A stretch of DNA of 64,000 nt from Pseudomonadota bacterium (GTDB lineage Bacteria > Desulfobacterota > Desulfobulbia > Desulfobulbales > Desulfurivibrionaceae): positions 496,001 through 560,000 of the forward strand of contig JAHJRQ010000015.1 in NCBI GenBank assembly GCA_018830485.1, given 5' to 3'. A program made the position numbers and the translations under genes. Shown here piece by piece: positions 1,293-42,845 of this stretch. The notes under the pieces were generated by a model that was not told where the DNA came from, ran no database searches, and saw only the letters and a list, made by a program, of their open reading frames with translations. Positions within the stretch are counted from its first letter, which is position 1, and every line of letters starts with the position of its first letter.

Positions 1293-2336
1293 TCAGATGA
1301 TTTCAATGGTTCCGGGTTTGCCTGCCACCACTTCGCCGATGATGCCGAAATCAAGGGGATAATCCCGTTTGCCCAGCCGTTCGGCAATGGAATTGGCCCC
1401 CTCGGCGGAAGCGGCAATGAGCAGGCCGCCGGAGGTTTGCGGATCGCAGAGAACCATCTCCATGGGGTCCAGCTCCTCCAAGGCGCTCCGCATGAAAGGC
1501 GCGTAAAAGGCCTTGTTCTTGTAGGCCCCCTCCGGGATGATGCCCATGGAGGCATGGTGCAGGGTCTCGGGCAGAATCGGCACGGCCCGCGAATCGATGC
1601 GGATGGCCACGCCAGAGGCAATAGCCATTTCGTAGAGATGCCCCACCAGCCCGAAGCCGGTGATGTCGGTGCAGGCGTGCGGACCCACGGTCTGCATGAG
1701 CTGGGCCGCCTCCCGGTTCAGGGTGGCCATGACCCGGGTGATCATGGCCTCGGTGCCCCGTGCGGCCACGCCGCCCTTGAGGGCGGTGGAGAGGATCCCG
1801 GTGCCCAGGGGCTTGGTAAGGAGCAGCAGATCCCCCACCCGGGCGCCGGAATTGAGGAGCACCCGGTTGGGATGCACCACACCGGTTACGGAAAGCCCGT
1901 ATTTCAACTCGGGGTCTTCGATGGAGTGCCCGCCCACCAGCAAGGCCCCGGCCTCCTTGATCTTATCAAGCCCGCCGCGCAGAATCTCCTGCAGAACGGA
2001 CCGCCCCAGCTCCTTGATGGGAAAGGCCACCAGGTTCATGGCCAGGAGCGGTTTGCCGCCCATGGCGTAGACGTCGGAAAGCGCATTGGCCGCAGCCACC
2101 TGGCCGAACTGGTAGGGGTCGTCGACAATGGGGGTGAAAAAATCCACCGTCTGGATGAGGGCGGTGTCGTCGTTGAGACGGTACACCCCCGCATCCTCGC
2201 CCGTTGACGCGCCCGCGATCAGGTTCGGGTCGGTGGGCAGGTCAAGGCCGCACAGTAATTGGTCCAGGTCCCCCGGACTCAATTTGGCGGCTCAACCCGC
2301 GGCTTTGACGGTGCTGGTCAGCTTCAGTTTGGTCAT
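1293..2336 (-). CDS. selD: Selenide, water dikinase (selenophosphate synthase), selenocysteine-containing
   Basis: Makes selenophosphate from selenide and ATP, the selenium donor for selenocysteine and selenouridine. A normal ORF call starts at the TTG at 2282, but the reading frame extends upstream through an in-frame TGA (2292-2294) to an ATG at 2336, giving 347 residues. The TGA falls at residue 15 in the motif G-U-A-A-K, exactly where the family has catalytic Cys or Sec followed two residues later by the essential Lys (here K18). A SECIS-like hairpin follows the TGA. Downstream GASTGEDAGVY, QTVDFF, AMGGKP and DPQTSGGLL are family signatures. I read the protein as a selenoprotein, as SelD is in many Sec-using anaerobes. 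It lies downstream of a DUF3343 gene and upstream of a kinase. Confidence 0.95.
2257..2294 (-). promoter_or_regulatory. bSECIS element in selD (UGA plus downstream hairpin)
   Basis: Directly after the UGA (2294-2292) and a 7-base spacer, AATTGAGTCC (2284-2275) pairs with GGACCAATT (2265-2257): nine base pairs with one bulged A, closed by a 9-base loop beginning GGG. The apical loop begins 17 bases after the UGA. Published bacterial SECIS rules are a UGA-to-loop distance of about 16-37 bases and at least one G in the first two loop positions; both are met. The hairpin would be bound by SelB. Confidence 0.8.
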
Positions 2337-13933: not shown

Positions 13934-15040
<1,107 letters not shown>

Positions 15041-15055: not shown

Positions 15056-15229
15056 TCAGAGAAAAAAGGTGAAAAGATAATATGATATGAGACCCATACC
15101 AATAGCGGCGTAGATCAACAGTCAGGACGGACAGTCGATCTCACGCTGCTTCTTGAGCATAAATGCAAAGGTCAGACCGGCAACAACAAGGGCGGCAAGG
15201 CTGGCAAGGGTATGTGGGGTCATGGGCAT
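15056..15229 (-). CDS. Candidate CxxU membrane selenoprotein (UGA read-through), upstream of mtnA
   Basis: I do not recognise this gene. An ATG at 15229 (AAGGA just upstream; a second in-frame ATG at 15223 is better spaced) opens a frame with a membrane helix (about residues 8-25), the basic loop KKQREID, then C33-P-S and a TGA codon (15122-15124). The frame continues past the TGA as a second helix (LLIYAAIGMGLISYYLFTFF) to a TGA at 15056-15058. Read as selenocysteine, it is a 57-residue two-helix protein with a C-P-S-U redox motif. A SECIS-like hairpin directly follows the UGA. Without read-through the product is 35 residues with one helix, and an unexplained gap before mtnA. The organism uses Sec, as selD shows. 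A thiol/selenol redox role at the membrane is inferred. Confidence 0.62.
15091..15124 (-). promoter_or_regulatory. Candidate bSECIS element in the CxxU gene
   Basis: After the UGA (15124-15122) and five bases, GATCTACGCC (15116-15107) pairs with GGTATGGGTC (15100-15091): nine of ten positions pair (three by G-U wobble, one C/A mismatch). The 6-base loop GCTATT begins with G, 16 bases after the UGA. This meets the same distance and loop rules as the selD element (17 bases). Confidence 0.58.
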
Positions 15230-15334
15230 CTGTCCTTATGGGTTGATTGCACAGGGTAATCCGTATTTTTTTTGCTGCCAAGAATTTAATGGTCGCAGAT
15301 CAGAAAGATGAATGCCCGGCATCCCCCGGGCCTA

Positions 15335-19577: not shown

Positions 19578-22235
19578 TCACGCAATCCCAACTTTTGCCA
19601 GCTCTTCCTTCAAACCGTCTTCCATCAGCAGGGTAAAGGTCATTCCTTGCGCTTCTTCCCACAACTCAAGCTGGCCTGCGCGGATGGCCGAGTCGGCATG
19701 GGCGGTCAAGAGGTCGAACAGTCTGCGTTTATACTCGGTGTCGTCGTTACCCTTCAGGTGCTCGCCCTTGGTCTCCAGCACCGAGAAACGAAACTTTCCG
19801 TCGTCTGCGCCGTGTAAACAGGCGAGCAGATCGGGATAGACCCGTTGCCGCTGCCAACCCTGCAAGCCGTATGACTGCTGATTCACGGCGATCCGGTGCC
19901 ACCAGTAGACACAGTCGCGGCTGTCCAGATACCAGGCGGTTTCTTTTTCCAGGTTGTTGAAGTCGCGTTGATAGACTTTTTCAAAAAGGGATCTCTCCAG
20001 CAATGCCCCGTCTTTCCGATATAAGATGCGATCTTCCTCTGCAACTTCAATCTCCAGCGTCTTCGCCAAGGCCCAATTCAATTCGGAATTTTTGGAAGTC
20101 AACAAGCGCAGCGTAATATCACCGCTTTCCAGTTTTTTTAAGAAAAGGGTTTTTGCCGCGTCATTAACCTGCCTGCGGAGATCAAGTTTCATGGCCTTCA
20201 GCAGGTCTAGCCGGTTGGCGTAGAGTCGTTCTTCGCTCACACCCCGCAAGCGCAAGGTGTCCAGGGTTTCCGCAAGAATGCGCATACCCTGCCAGGGGTT
20301 GGGGATAACATCAAGCAACTGCCGGACAAGAAAGGCCACATCGAGCCCCTCGGCGGGCAGGTCTTCTATTTTCTCCTGGATGAAATCGAGCAGGGTCCGG
20401 CCGCTTTCCTGTTCAGACTTGTCGATGTCGATTCGGGCGATGGTGCGTTTGAGTTTATCCTCGCCGTCGACGCTGACGCTGTCGGCCTGGAAAAAGTGAA
20501 ACGTCTCCCAATCCAGATAGCCCAAGATGTCGCGGTCGTAATCCAGCACCCGATAGCCATCGGGCCGGCTCTCATCACGATGCAGCACCCGTGGCAGAAA
20601 GATGGTCGGCACTCGCGCAAAGGCCGCATGCCGGCCTATGGTTTCTCGGCGCGACATGCGCGTGGCTCCACCCTCGCCGTCCGTGACCTTGACGCTTGCG
20701 GCAAGGTCGGCCATGCCTTCGTCCTCCAGTCCTCGACGCACCCCATTGACCGCCTCCCGCACATCCTGGTCAAAGGTGAAGACATAGCACTCATCCAAGG
20801 CGGGACGGTGGGTCAGTTGGGCATGGGGCTGGCGCAGCACCCTGCCGATCATCTGGGTCAGGGCGGTGTTGGCCGTGGTTTTGGAAAGAATCGTCAGCAC
20901 GTAGGCAAAGGGGCAGTCCCAACCTTCGCGCAGGGCGTCCTTGGTGACGATGTAGCGCACCGGGCAGGTCTCCACCAGCAGATCCTCACTGCCCAACTCA
21001 TCGCTCTCCGAAGTCTTGAGCCGGATTTCCTCTCCCCGCACCCCCAGCTTTTCGATCAGGTACTCGCGGGCATCCTCGGCATGAACAAAGGCCGTGTCGC
21101 GTTGATCCTTGCCGGTTCGTTCCACCCGCACCAGCATGATTGGCCTGATATGGCGTCCGCTTTCAGCCTGCAAGGCCTCCGCCTCCTTGGCCAACTCGCC
21201 CAGTTTGGCGTGGGCGATGGTCAGGGTATGCTTCCAGCCGCCTTTATCCTCGTTGATGACGTTGATGGGCAGCTTGATCATCTCTTCGTCTTTCAAGTCC
21301 GTGCCGGGCACGTTGACCAGGACGTTTGACTGGTGCTTGCCGTTGGTGTTCGGCGTGGCCGAGAGTTCGACGATAAAGCGGGGGTTGAAGCCGTGTATGG
21401 TGAGGCGGGCTGTATCGGAGTAAGCCCGATGCCCTTCATCGATGATCACCACCGGCCGCACCAGGCGCAGTACATTGCCGAGACTCTGCTTGATGGAAAG
21501 CAAGCCGGGGGTGACTCCCTGCATCCAGCCCGTGTGCGAGAGGTCATTGATGTCCAGATTCCGCACCGCATCAAGCATCCGCCGGTTGGCCACGCTGTCG
21601 TCTTCCACCGGAAAAAACGAGGTGAAGCGGCCGCTGTCGCGGAACATGCGCAGGGTTTCCTTGGATTGCCGGGCCGCCGAGGGCAGCATCAGCAGCATGA
21701 CGCAGAGTTGGCCTTCCACGTCGCGCCGGGTGAAGACGTCGCCCTTTTCCAGCAGCTTGACCCGGCCGCCGGAGGCGCGTTCCAGGATTTGCCGGTAGGG
21801 GTGCTCGCGGTTGGCGAGCTGTTTCCAGGTCTGGCGGTAGATGGCGTCGGAAGGAACCACCCAGAGGATAACCCCGGTCTGGCATTTGAAAAAATCGGTC
21901 TGGATGCGCTCCAGCGCCGAGGCGGCCAGCAGGGTTTTGCCGCCGCCGGTGGGCACCTTCAGGCAGACGTTGGGGATGGCGCGGTGAAGGCCGTCACGGC
22001 GGGAGAGATAGGGCGCGACACAGGCATTGCCGTTCCGGTCGCCCAGATAGGGCAGCAGGCGTTCCTTGTTCAACTGGTCCCAGGCCTCATGGCAGTAGTC
22101 CGCCAGTTCGGCTTCCTTGCCCCGGCTCTTCTGAAAGGCCACAAAAGCCTCGGCATCCTCACGCTTTTCAGAAAGCACAGCCAGATAGCGGTCGATCTTC
22201 TGGAGAACCCCCTGCTGGTATTCCTTGAGTTCCAC
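19578..22235 (-). CDS. Type III restriction enzyme, Res (helicase-nuclease) subunit
   Basis: ATP-dependent restriction subunit that translocates on DNA and cuts with Mod. 885 residues from GTG at 22235, which has GGAG nine bases upstream and lies 5 bases after the mod stop; an in-frame ATG at 22268 without a ribosome site would add 11 residues. Helicase motif I is PTGGGKT (95-101) and motif II is DEGH (266-269). GWDCPFAYVLTILSKT and QMIGRVLRQP are motifs of the second RecA domain. Near the C-terminus, FRFSVLETKGEHL is the PD-(D/E)xK nuclease core. No frameshift or internal stop was found, so the enzyme looks intact. Confidence 0.9.
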   Translation of the reverse strand: MELKEYQQGVLQKIDRYLAVLSEKREDAEAFVAFQKSRGKEAELADYCHEAWDQLNKERLLPYLGDRNGNACVAPYLSRRDGLHRAIPNVCLKVPTGGGKTLLAASALERIQTDFFKCQTGVILWVVPSDAIYRQTWKQLANREHPYRQILERASGGRVKLLEKGDVFTRRDVEGQLCVMLLMLPSAARQSKETLRMFRDSGRFTSFFPVEDDSVANRRMLDAVRNLDINDLSHTGWMQGVTPGLLSIKQSLGNVLRLVRPVVIIDEGHRAYSDTARLTIHGFNPRFIVELSATPNTNGKHQSNVLVNVPGTDLKDEEMIKLPINVINEDKGGWKHTLTIAHAKLGELAKEAEALQAESGRHIRPIMLVRVERTGKDQRDTAFVHAEDAREYLIEKLGVRGEEIRLKTSESDELGSEDLLVETCPVRYIVTKDALREGWDCPFAYVLTILSKTTANTALTQMIGRVLRQPHAQLTHRPALDECYVFTFDQDVREAVNGVRRGLEDEGMADLAASVKVTDGEGGATRMSRRETIGRHAAFARVPTIFLPRVLHRDESRPDGYRVLDYDRDILGYLDWETFHFFQADSVSVDGEDKLKRTIARIDIDKSEQESGRTLLDFIQEKIEDLPAEGLDVAFLVRQLLDVIPNPWQGMRILAETLDTLRLRGVSEERLYANRLDLLKAMKLDLRRQVNDAAKTLFLKKLESGDITLRLLTSKNSELNWALAKTLEIEVAEEDRILYRKDGALLERSLFEKVYQRDFNNLEKETAWYLDSRDCVYWWHRIAVNQQSYGLQGWQRQRVYPDLLACLHGADDGKFRFSVLETKGEHLKGNDDTEYKRRLFDLLTAHADSAIRAGQLELWEEAQGMTFTLLMEDGLKEELAKVGIA

Positions 22236-22239
22236 GCCT

Positions 22240-24060
22240 TCAGTCTCCCAGTATCCGGTGTACGGCATAGGGTAGCTGGCAGAATTCGATGCGCTGCCGG
22301 GTAAGCTCCTTTTGGCTCATGAACTTGGCCACCGCAAAGACGATGGCCCTTTTTTTGTCTGAACGTCTGCCCGAGGCAATGGCCTCGACCCGTTCGGCGT
22401 TCAGGGCCGCCTCGTTGGAGCGCAGCCAGACCGGGTCGGGGCGGTAGATAAGATGGATGCGGAAGAGTTCGGTTTCGCCGATCAGGCCGTCGATGGAAGG
22501 CTTGCCGACCTTTGCCAGCGACTGGCCGGTGGCGGTATAGAAAACATAGCGGGCCAGGGCGTCGAAAGCGGGGAGACCCTGGCCGGTGAGCAGGCTTTCC
22601 ACGGCGATGGCATCGCCCAGAGTGCAGAAGGTGAAGCTCCCGCCCAGGCCCGGCACCTTTTTTTCAATCCTGCGTTCGCCGGTAACGGTGAGCACGCCGT
22701 CCTTGATCTCTTTCTTGATCTTGTCAAAGGATGCTGCCGCCTTCTTTTCAAAGTGCTCCACCTGGAGGAGGATTTGCTTATGATTCTTGGCGAAATTGCT
22801 CCAGGTGATTTTCTCGGTGTAAAGTTCCTGCCGCTGGCTGCCGGTGAAGGCGTAGCCGTCTATCACCCGTCGCACCCGTTCGGCGGTCAGGGTGTCGGCG
22901 TACTCCTCGCACTCCACCAGGATGAAGCGCCGGTTGCCGCCGTCCTTTTGGTTGGCGGCCAGCACGGCGTGGGCCGTGGTGCCGGACCCGGCGAAAGAGT
23001 CGAGGATGATGGAGTCACTTGTAGTCGCCAGCGCGATAATTCTTGCCAACAACCTTTTGGGCTTCGGATAATCAAAAGGATTATCACTGCCCAGTATCTG
23101 CATGATTTCTTTTTTTGCTTCCTGATTATGACCGACTTCTTCATTCGGCCACCAGGACCAGCTACTCAACCCTTCCGACTCGGAAAGATACGTTTTTATT
23201 CTTGGCCTTGCATCGCCATTAACTCCAAACCAAATTCGCCCTTCTTGTTTTTTGGTTAAGTACTCTGGTTCAAGCATGGACCAGCAACGTCCGGGAGGAG
23301 GGTCAACTTTTCTCCCGTTAGGCAATGTAATTGTATATTGCTGGCCCTTGCGCTTAGATGGGTCTATATTTTGGGCTGTTAAATCTGTTGACACCCATTC
23401 TCCACGTGGGTCATTGTCGGGGTTGGAAAAGCCGTCCGCCTGTTCTGCTGTAAGGCTAAGTTTGGCAACCTGCGCAGACTGGGGGTGTCGTGAGTAAACA
23501 TGAATTATATCATGAGCAGCCCCGAGTCTTTTCCGAGATTCTGGGGATGTCCTCTTCTGCCATACAATCGAAGCAACATGGCAATCTTGGCCGAATAGCT
23601 CGTCAAGGAGCTCTCTCAAATGATGTTGTTCATTGTCGTCAATGGTTATGAAAATAACACCATTTTCAGACAGCAAGTCGGTGAGTAGGCACAACCTCGG
23701 CCACATCATGCACAGCCACTTGTCATGGCGCTCCAGATCCTCCTTGTCCACCGGGTTGGCCGATTTCTTCAGCCACTCCTGCATCAGGGGCGATCGCACA
23801 TTGTCGTTGTAGCACCAGCCCTCGTTACCGGTGTTGTACGGCGGGTCGATGAAGATGCAGTCAATCTTGCCGGCGTGGGTGGGCAACAGGGCCTTCAGGG
23901 CCTCCAGGTTATCGCCGTGGATAATCAGGTTGTCATCCAGCGAAGGCTGCCGCCCTTGCGCGGGCAGGGACTTGGCCGCCTCCACCCGCAACTCCCGGAA
24001 GGGCACGCTCAGGTGGTGGGAATAGACAAACTGCTTGCCCTTGAATTCCAATGTCGGCAT
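22240..24060 (-). CDS. Type III DNA methyltransferase, Mod subunit
   Basis: Site-specific adenine methyltransferase that also gives the R-M system its recognition. 606 residues. The catalytic motif IDPPYN (71-76) precedes the SAM-binding motif FAGSGTT (356-362), the beta-class order. The roughly 270 residues between them hold the target-recognition region. AAGGAG precedes the ATG at 24060. It is the first gene of the mod-res pair and is preceded, 50 bases upstream, by dinD on the same strand. No simple-sequence tract of the phase-variable kind is seen in the coding region. Recognition sequence unknown. Confidence 0.93.
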   Translation of the reverse strand: MPTLEFKGKQFVYSHHLSVPFRELRVEAAKSLPAQGRQPSLDDNLIIHGDNLEALKALLPTHAGKIDCIFIDPPYNTGNEGWCYNDNVRSPLMQEWLKKSANPVDKEDLERHDKWLCMMWPRLCLLTDLLSENGVIFITIDDNEQHHLRELLDELFGQDCHVASIVWQKRTSPESRKRLGAAHDIIHVYSRHPQSAQVAKLSLTAEQADGFSNPDNDPRGEWVSTDLTAQNIDPSKRKGQQYTITLPNGRKVDPPPGRCWSMLEPEYLTKKQEGRIWFGVNGDARPRIKTYLSESEGLSSWSWWPNEEVGHNQEAKKEIMQILGSDNPFDYPKPKRLLARIIALATTSDSIILDSFAGSGTTAHAVLAANQKDGGNRRFILVECEEYADTLTAERVRRVIDGYAFTGSQRQELYTEKITWSNFAKNHKQILLQVEHFEKKAAASFDKIKKEIKDGVLTVTGERRIEKKVPGLGGSFTFCTLGDAIAVESLLTGQGLPAFDALARYVFYTATGQSLAKVGKPSIDGLIGETELFRIHLIYRPDPVWLRSNEAALNAERVEAIASGRRSDKKRAIVFAVAKFMSQKELTRQRIEFCQLPYAVHRILGD

Positions 24061-42633: not shown

Positions 42634-42654
42634 ATCTGGACAGATGGTTCCTTT

Positions 42655-42845
42655 TTTACCAGGCTGGCAGGTCTTCTGACTCGCGGATCTACCCTTCGCC
42701 GCGCCTTCCCGCCTTGCGGCAGTGGCATGTGCGGCGTCGGTCCCCGCTCACAGCGTCGGCCCAACGTGACGGAATCACACCGTCTTCCCTATTCTCCCGC
42801 CAATTCCGAGGAAGAGGCAGGCACCGGTCTGGTTATGTTTTTTCC
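42655..42845 (-). ncRNA. Cobalamin riboswitch
   Basis: On the minus strand the conserved elements occur in order: GGTGCCTGCC near 42825, AGGGAAGACGGTGTGATTCC near 42770-42790, a GCCACTG core near 42720, GGGAAGG near 42700 and the B12 box GAGTCAGAAGACCTGCC near 42665-42682. Together these are diagnostic of the class. It controls the downstream ThiC-family gene, with a terminator as the output. No other gene lies between. Confidence 0.93.

Follow-up and report, generated by a model that had tools for sequence, protein, structure and literature searches.

A 64,000-nucleotide stretch of a Desulfurivibrionaceae genome (contig JAHJRQ010000015.1, positions 496,001 to 560,000; hereafter the window) carries on its minus strand a short gene with an internal UGA codon. 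This locus is almost certainly a genuine selenoprotein gene. The best overall explanation, to which a probability of roughly 0.85 is assigned, is a selenoprotein whose selenocysteine (Sec) is decoded by means of a selenocysteine insertion sequence (SECIS) hairpin and SelB, and in which a Cys-Sec redox couple lies at the membrane surface. A first-pass annotation of the window had proposed a membrane selenoprotein with a C-P-S-U motif, and this proposal is borne out by a UGA-containing frame conserved in most of the class, a covarying SECIS hairpin and the presence of the Sec machinery. The parts of the gene are as follows.

15056-15223, minus strand: selenoprotein gene, 55 codons plus a TGA stop (15058-15056), with a frame conserved through the internal TGA
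15223-15221, minus strand: most likely start codon (ATG), placed by relatives and ribosome-site spacing; alternative ATG at 15229
15233-15237, minus strand: ribosome-binding site AAGGA, 9 nucleotides ahead of the ATG at 15223
15131-15133, minus strand: Cys codon of the C-x-P/S-U motif
15122-15124, minus strand: internal UGA, the predicted selenocysteine codon

With the TGA read as Sec, the frame from 15229 to 15056 gives MPMTPHTLASLAALVVAGLTFAFMLKKQREIDCPSULLIYAAIGMGLISYYLFTFFL, followed by a TGA stop. On the minus strand it runs, as the annotation had described, through the UGA to a normal stop 15 bases before the ATG of mtnA at 15040. In relatives the first ATG is missing, or the second ATG alone is kept. 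The AAGGA sequence lies only 3 nucleotides from the first ATG, and the AGGA-to-ATG spacing at the second is alike in relatives that have the second ATG alone. Because the relatives keep the second ATG and the ribosome-binding site is better spaced there, the protein most likely starts at 15223 and has 55 residues. Relative to the first-pass annotation, the likely start moves from 15229 to 15223, and Sec becomes residue 34 instead of 36.

The read-through protein is matched in 31 of 38 related genomes. When a profile of 25 members is searched against 258 genomes of the class (identified as Desulfobulbia from its named members; Desulfogranum mediterraneum DSM 13871 is among the hosts), the frame is found in 214, including 136 of the 149 high-quality genomes. 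Each of the matches listed contains a single in-frame TGA, always in the one column, apart from those of the sister genomes G025 and G224, which have Cys there. Among 394 genomes sampled across the phylum, matches are confined to members of the class and one outsider, G293, which looks Desulfovibrio-like by its gene content and whose match reads GRCTPU-IFMYAAVAAGLVTY. The core motif of the family is C-x-[PSAT]-U-L-x-x-Y-[GAS]-[ST]-x-G-x-G-L, and all but one of 90 distinct sequences have the Cys at position -3 from Sec.

These 90 sequences were picked for having one TGA, so conservation of the TGA itself rests on the 258-genome search. Over codons 1-21 after the UGA, the mean BLOSUM score is 2.68 in frame, compared with 0.30 and 0.63 in the other two frames, and a stop interrupts this region in 1% of sequences in frame versus 78% and 19% in the others. 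Codons 14-21, which lie past the hairpins described below, still score 2.04 in frame (-0.17 and 0.01 in the other frames), and the third codon position varies most. The stop falls exactly 22 codons from the Sec codon in 73 of the 90. Conservation of the protein both before and after the internal UGA shows, at the level of sequence comparison, that this codon is decoded. Because the codon resembles a stop, the gene has been taken for a truncated fragment: to standard gene callers it would appear as a single-helix peptide of 33-35 residues ending at the UGA, with the remainder as an untranslated spacer or a leader of mtnA, whose start lies so close to the end of the frame. Such a peptide is highly improbable, given in-frame conservation past the UGA (including beyond the hairpins) where mtnA is not a neighbour, the conserved position of the final stop and the replacement of the UGA by a Cys codon in two genomes.

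These two replacements read CPMC and CPAC (L025 and L116, in G025 and G224), and selA is still present in both genomes. Both Cys forms lack the Tyr at +4 and the Gly-x-Gly that are near-invariant in Sec forms; Gly-x-Gly may therefore owe its conservation to the RNA hairpin and not to the protein, a suggestion based on one genus. The single sequence without the Cys at -3 belongs to G257 (L112 / L193), in which the copy directly before mtnA reads Gly-Arg-Pro-Sec, so that Sec is kept and the Cys of CxxU is lost. G253 has two copies of the selenoprotein gene (L168 and L169), each beside its own mtnA. The homologues bearing UGA or Cys that the first-pass annotation had proposed to look for are thus found, together with conservation past the UGA, CxxU and CxxC relatives and a conserved hairpin. 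The pattern that it had named as counting against its proposal (all homologues ending at the UGA, with no hairpin and no such relatives) was looked for and is not what the genomes contain.

Two overlapping hairpins can be drawn downstream of the UGA in the window.

15083-15101, minus strand: SECIS hairpin UGGUAUG-[GGUCU]-CAUAUCA (apical loop 15094-15090), 20-nucleotide spacer after the UGA; conserved and covarying
15091-15116, minus strand: hairpin GAUCUAcGCC/GGUaUGGGUC of the first-pass annotation; energetically favoured in the window sequence but lacking conservation

Across the family the conserved hairpin occupies one of two positions. In class I (55 sequences), nucleotides 13-20 downstream of the UGA pair with nucleotides 25-32 around a loop of four nucleotides, usually AGGU. 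The aligned stem cells include 43 double changes, compared with 15.8 ± 3.1 in shuffled alignments (0 of 500 shuffles reach the observed value), and 86% of cells are paired, compared with at most 57.5% when the stem is slid. Shuffling leaves shared ancestry in, whereas the slid controls take it out. In the best class I pair, the wobble base of Gly+5 is matched with that of Gly+10; CG, AU, GC and UA are all seen there, with the protein unaffected. In class II (20 sequences, including that of the window), nucleotides 21-27 pair with 33-39 around the loop GGUCU; 95% of cells are paired, with 8 double changes versus 2.8 ± 1.5 after shuffling (0 of 500). The outer pair, at two synonymous third positions, is UA, CG, GC or AU, and the class II run GGTATGGGTCTCATATC is nearly invariant in several families of the class. 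The hairpin of most other families, with its AGGU loop, is thus 8 bases closer to the TGA than that of the window lineage with GGUCU, and the first apical-loop nucleotide is number 21 or number 28 downstream of the UGA according to class. In both classes a hairpin follows soon after the UGA and has a G in its apical loop, as is usual for a SECIS element. Codon choice in the element is also biased: Ile+12 is encoded by ATA in 34 of 40 cases and Gly+8 by GGT in 69 of 88, whereas the corresponding shares in typA and mtnA (neighbouring genes in different families) are 13% and 26%.

At the level of aligned sequences, these comparisons show that selection acts on a SECIS hairpin immediately downstream of the UGA. 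The hairpin put forward in the first-pass annotation does exist: the RNA-fold check suggested there returns it as the minimum-energy structure of this single sequence. It is rejected as the SECIS element: it has no double changes, its pairing is no better than in shuffles and the overlapping hairpin at 15101-15083 covaries instead. In the E. coli fdhF SECIS element, a hairpin lies close behind the UGA and has the apical loop AGGUCU. The present family shares GGU in the apical loop (as GGUCU or AGGU) and differs from fdhF in using two alternative hairpin positions. The family is a clean illustration of how SECIS elements can occupy two positions within a single gene family, and of selection at the RNA level on codons that specify a membrane helix.

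The genome carries selA, selB, selD and a tRNA-Sec gene (71.1 bits, above the cut-off), and one of these genes shows Sec use within the window.

2292-2294, minus strand: UGA (Sec) codon of selD

That the organism uses Sec had been argued from selD, whose UGA at 2294 is confirmed. The motif at this UGA is GUAAK, and a strong hairpin (-24.9 kcal/mol for 47 nucleotides) follows it directly. In genus g34, selA and the selenoprotein gene are both absent in five of five genomes. The selA survey covers 60 chosen genomes; selB was scored on five candidates per genome, which makes its class-wide counts unreliable, and selA was used for this reason. In the proposed mechanism, SelB bound to the hairpin would deliver charged tRNA-Sec to the UGA. 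Decoding of another kind (read-through with Trp, near-cognate insertion or a reassigned UGA) is conceivable in that the identity of the inserted residue is deduced from sequence. It is very unlikely, since both relatives with a sense codon have Cys at the UGA column, the hairpin is of SECIS type and covaries, the genome has the full Sec machinery and the gene is missing in the genus without selA.

The Sec-containing product is predicted to be a membrane helical hairpin consisting of helix 1, a positively charged loop, Cys-x-Pro/Ser-Sec and helix 2. AlphaFold2 places helices at residues 3-26 and 32-54, with C-x-P-U at the N-terminus of helix 2, in agreement with the two-helix form with CxxU between the helices that had been described. 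Lys and Arg together number 2.45 in the loop, compared with 0.61 and 0.74 at the two ends. This crowding of positive charge points, by the positive-inside rule, to a cytoplasmic loop. No further Cys is conserved in 69 sequences, and the family hence has no second Cys pair.

Any function proposed for the family is tentative. The likeliest role of the Cys-Sec pair at the N-terminus of helix 2 is that of a redox couple, thiol with selenol, at the surface of the membrane; judged from the motif, its chances are about even. Electrons would then pass between a thiol partner in the cytoplasm and an acceptor held in the membrane, which may be a quinone, a peroxide or polysulfide. The more specific proposal of a minimal two-helix, cytoplasm-facing selenol oxidoreductase, quinone- or peroxide-coupled and core to energy or sulfur metabolism across Desulfobulbia, is speculative and rather unlikely; if it were true, a selenol redox centre would work without a folded redox domain. 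Other bacterial CxxU selenoproteins (SelW-like, GrdA and AhpD-like among them; PMC13188914, Table 1) have the same Cys two residues from Sec and the same decoding by SelA, SelB and tRNA-Sec, with a hairpin right after the UGA. They have a thioredoxin-like or other soluble fold, whereas the new family has two membrane helices, no model match above cut-off and almost no Cys homologues.

A likeness to DsbB and VKOR is also apparent, as in these proteins a CxxC opens a transmembrane helix after a short loop and a conserved residue follows four positions on (Arg in DsbB, Tyr in the new family). The new family differs in having two helices only, no second Cys pair and a loop predicted to be cytoplasmic rather than periplasmic. 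Homology to DsbB was considered and rejected: one member matched at 4.7e-4, and profile comparison against two single DsbB sequences gave probabilities of 1.2% and 0.2%. A short DsbB-like gene (L192, G000:C1:38356-38730) is found about 1.1 kb from selA, followed by DsbA-like thioredoxin-fold and TlpA-like genes; DsbB is otherwise rare in the phylum sample (2 of 59 genomes).

The Cys-Sec pair could instead bind a soft metal ion, making the protein a small transporter or metallochaperone similar to MerF or MerT. A hairpin of two helices whose thiol/selenol pair lies close to the membrane face is similar in outline to the small mercury carriers, with their small membrane helices and soft-ligand pair, and a MerT-like protein with C/SxxU has already been catalogued in its Sec form (PMC13188914). 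This role is doubtful, as no Pfam or NCBIfam mercury-transport model (MerT and MerF included) is among the families listed for the 69 members, no mer-type genes are among the recurrent neighbours and an occurrence in nearly all of the class points to a housekeeping function. The size and hairpin form would also fit a small structural subunit in a membrane complex (compare CydS of cytochrome bd), with Cys-Sec as a permanent link or ligand, and one member matches CydS with an E-value of 0.002, which is weak among 69 members. A subunit of this kind is improbable, because unrelated housekeeping genes adjoin the gene and no conserved complex genes are nearby.

The neighbour downstream in the window is lineage-specific and separate from the selenoprotein gene.

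13934-15040, minus strand: mtnA (NCBIfam TIGR00512, 4.4e-120)

In the genus of the window an operon with mtnA is likely because the gap is 15 nucleotides. The coupling to mtnA that had been proposed extends to many families of the class: the gene lies directly before mtnA in the genus of the window, its relatives g5 and g6 and families f2, f3, f4, f5, f7, f8, f14 and f15. It does not extend to all. In two large families (f11 and f12) the gene is directly after typA, and in the sampled members of f13 and of g4, a genus in the window's own family, it adjoins neither. The typA label is a reading of a conserved frame with a BipA/TypA-type GTPase start, made without a library match. A function drawn from linkage to mtnA is rejected family-wide on the basis of these arrangements, and the neighbours are uninformative on function because mtnA and typA are both housekeeping genes.

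Several observations weigh against a SECIS-decoded selenoprotein with a Cys-Sec couple at the membrane. Single-sequence folding of the region is not significant (z -0.69), and its folding energy relative to synonymous shuffles drawn from typA and mtnA codons has a mean z of -0.34, near zero or positive in the genus of the window. Folding of single sequences was accordingly dropped as proof of a SECIS element, and covariation was used in its place. In the window sequence the conserved hairpin has -5.6 kcal/mol, versus -9.6 kcal/mol for the overlapping one. Co-loss with selA is seen in one genus (g34) and so in one clade, and several SelA-positive genomes are without the selenoprotein gene. One homologue (L112) has no CxxU Cys, the structure model is modest (predicted local distance difference test, pLDDT, 69.5; predicted template modelling score, pTM, 0.35) and the neighbours support no function.

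The statement in the first-pass annotation that no named family has this form holds in the databases searched. No Pfam or NCBIfam model is above cut-off for any of the 69 members, a PDB profile search gives no match and viral contigs contain no match to the protein. Matches to CydS, FeoB-associated, PrgI and CoxD proteins are scattered, single-helix or compositional and far below significance for 69 members, and were rejected. Desulfosediminicola is a genus that we take to belong to the Desulfobulbales. The deep-Sep text reports a scan of two Desulfosediminicola genomes, and the new families shown in that text do not include the present one (PMC12013277). Its authors state that proteins with no Cys counterpart may escape detection (PMC12013277). 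A 2026 table of 119 prokaryotic selenoprotein families contains none of this form, with entries that have no model or a cd domain only compared by description (PMC13188914). Literature searches on CPSU, on mtnA with selenoproteins and on membrane selenoproteins returned nothing relevant; most subscription papers were outside the search, so an earlier description is possible. Being small, with an internal UGA and few Cys homologues, the family would be overlooked by searches based on Cys homologues. It adds a selenoprotein family, with Sec nearly without exception, that is found in most of a class with cultured sulfate reducers such as Desulfogranum mediterraneum.

Two further features of the window were noted. 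Positions 19578-24060 (minus strand) contain two overlapping large frames that, judged by translation only, are like the type III restriction enzyme res (896 residues) and methyltransferase mod (606 residues). At the gathering threshold the window has a single Rfam match, a cobalamin riboswitch at 42649-42843 (minus strand; 113.5 bits).
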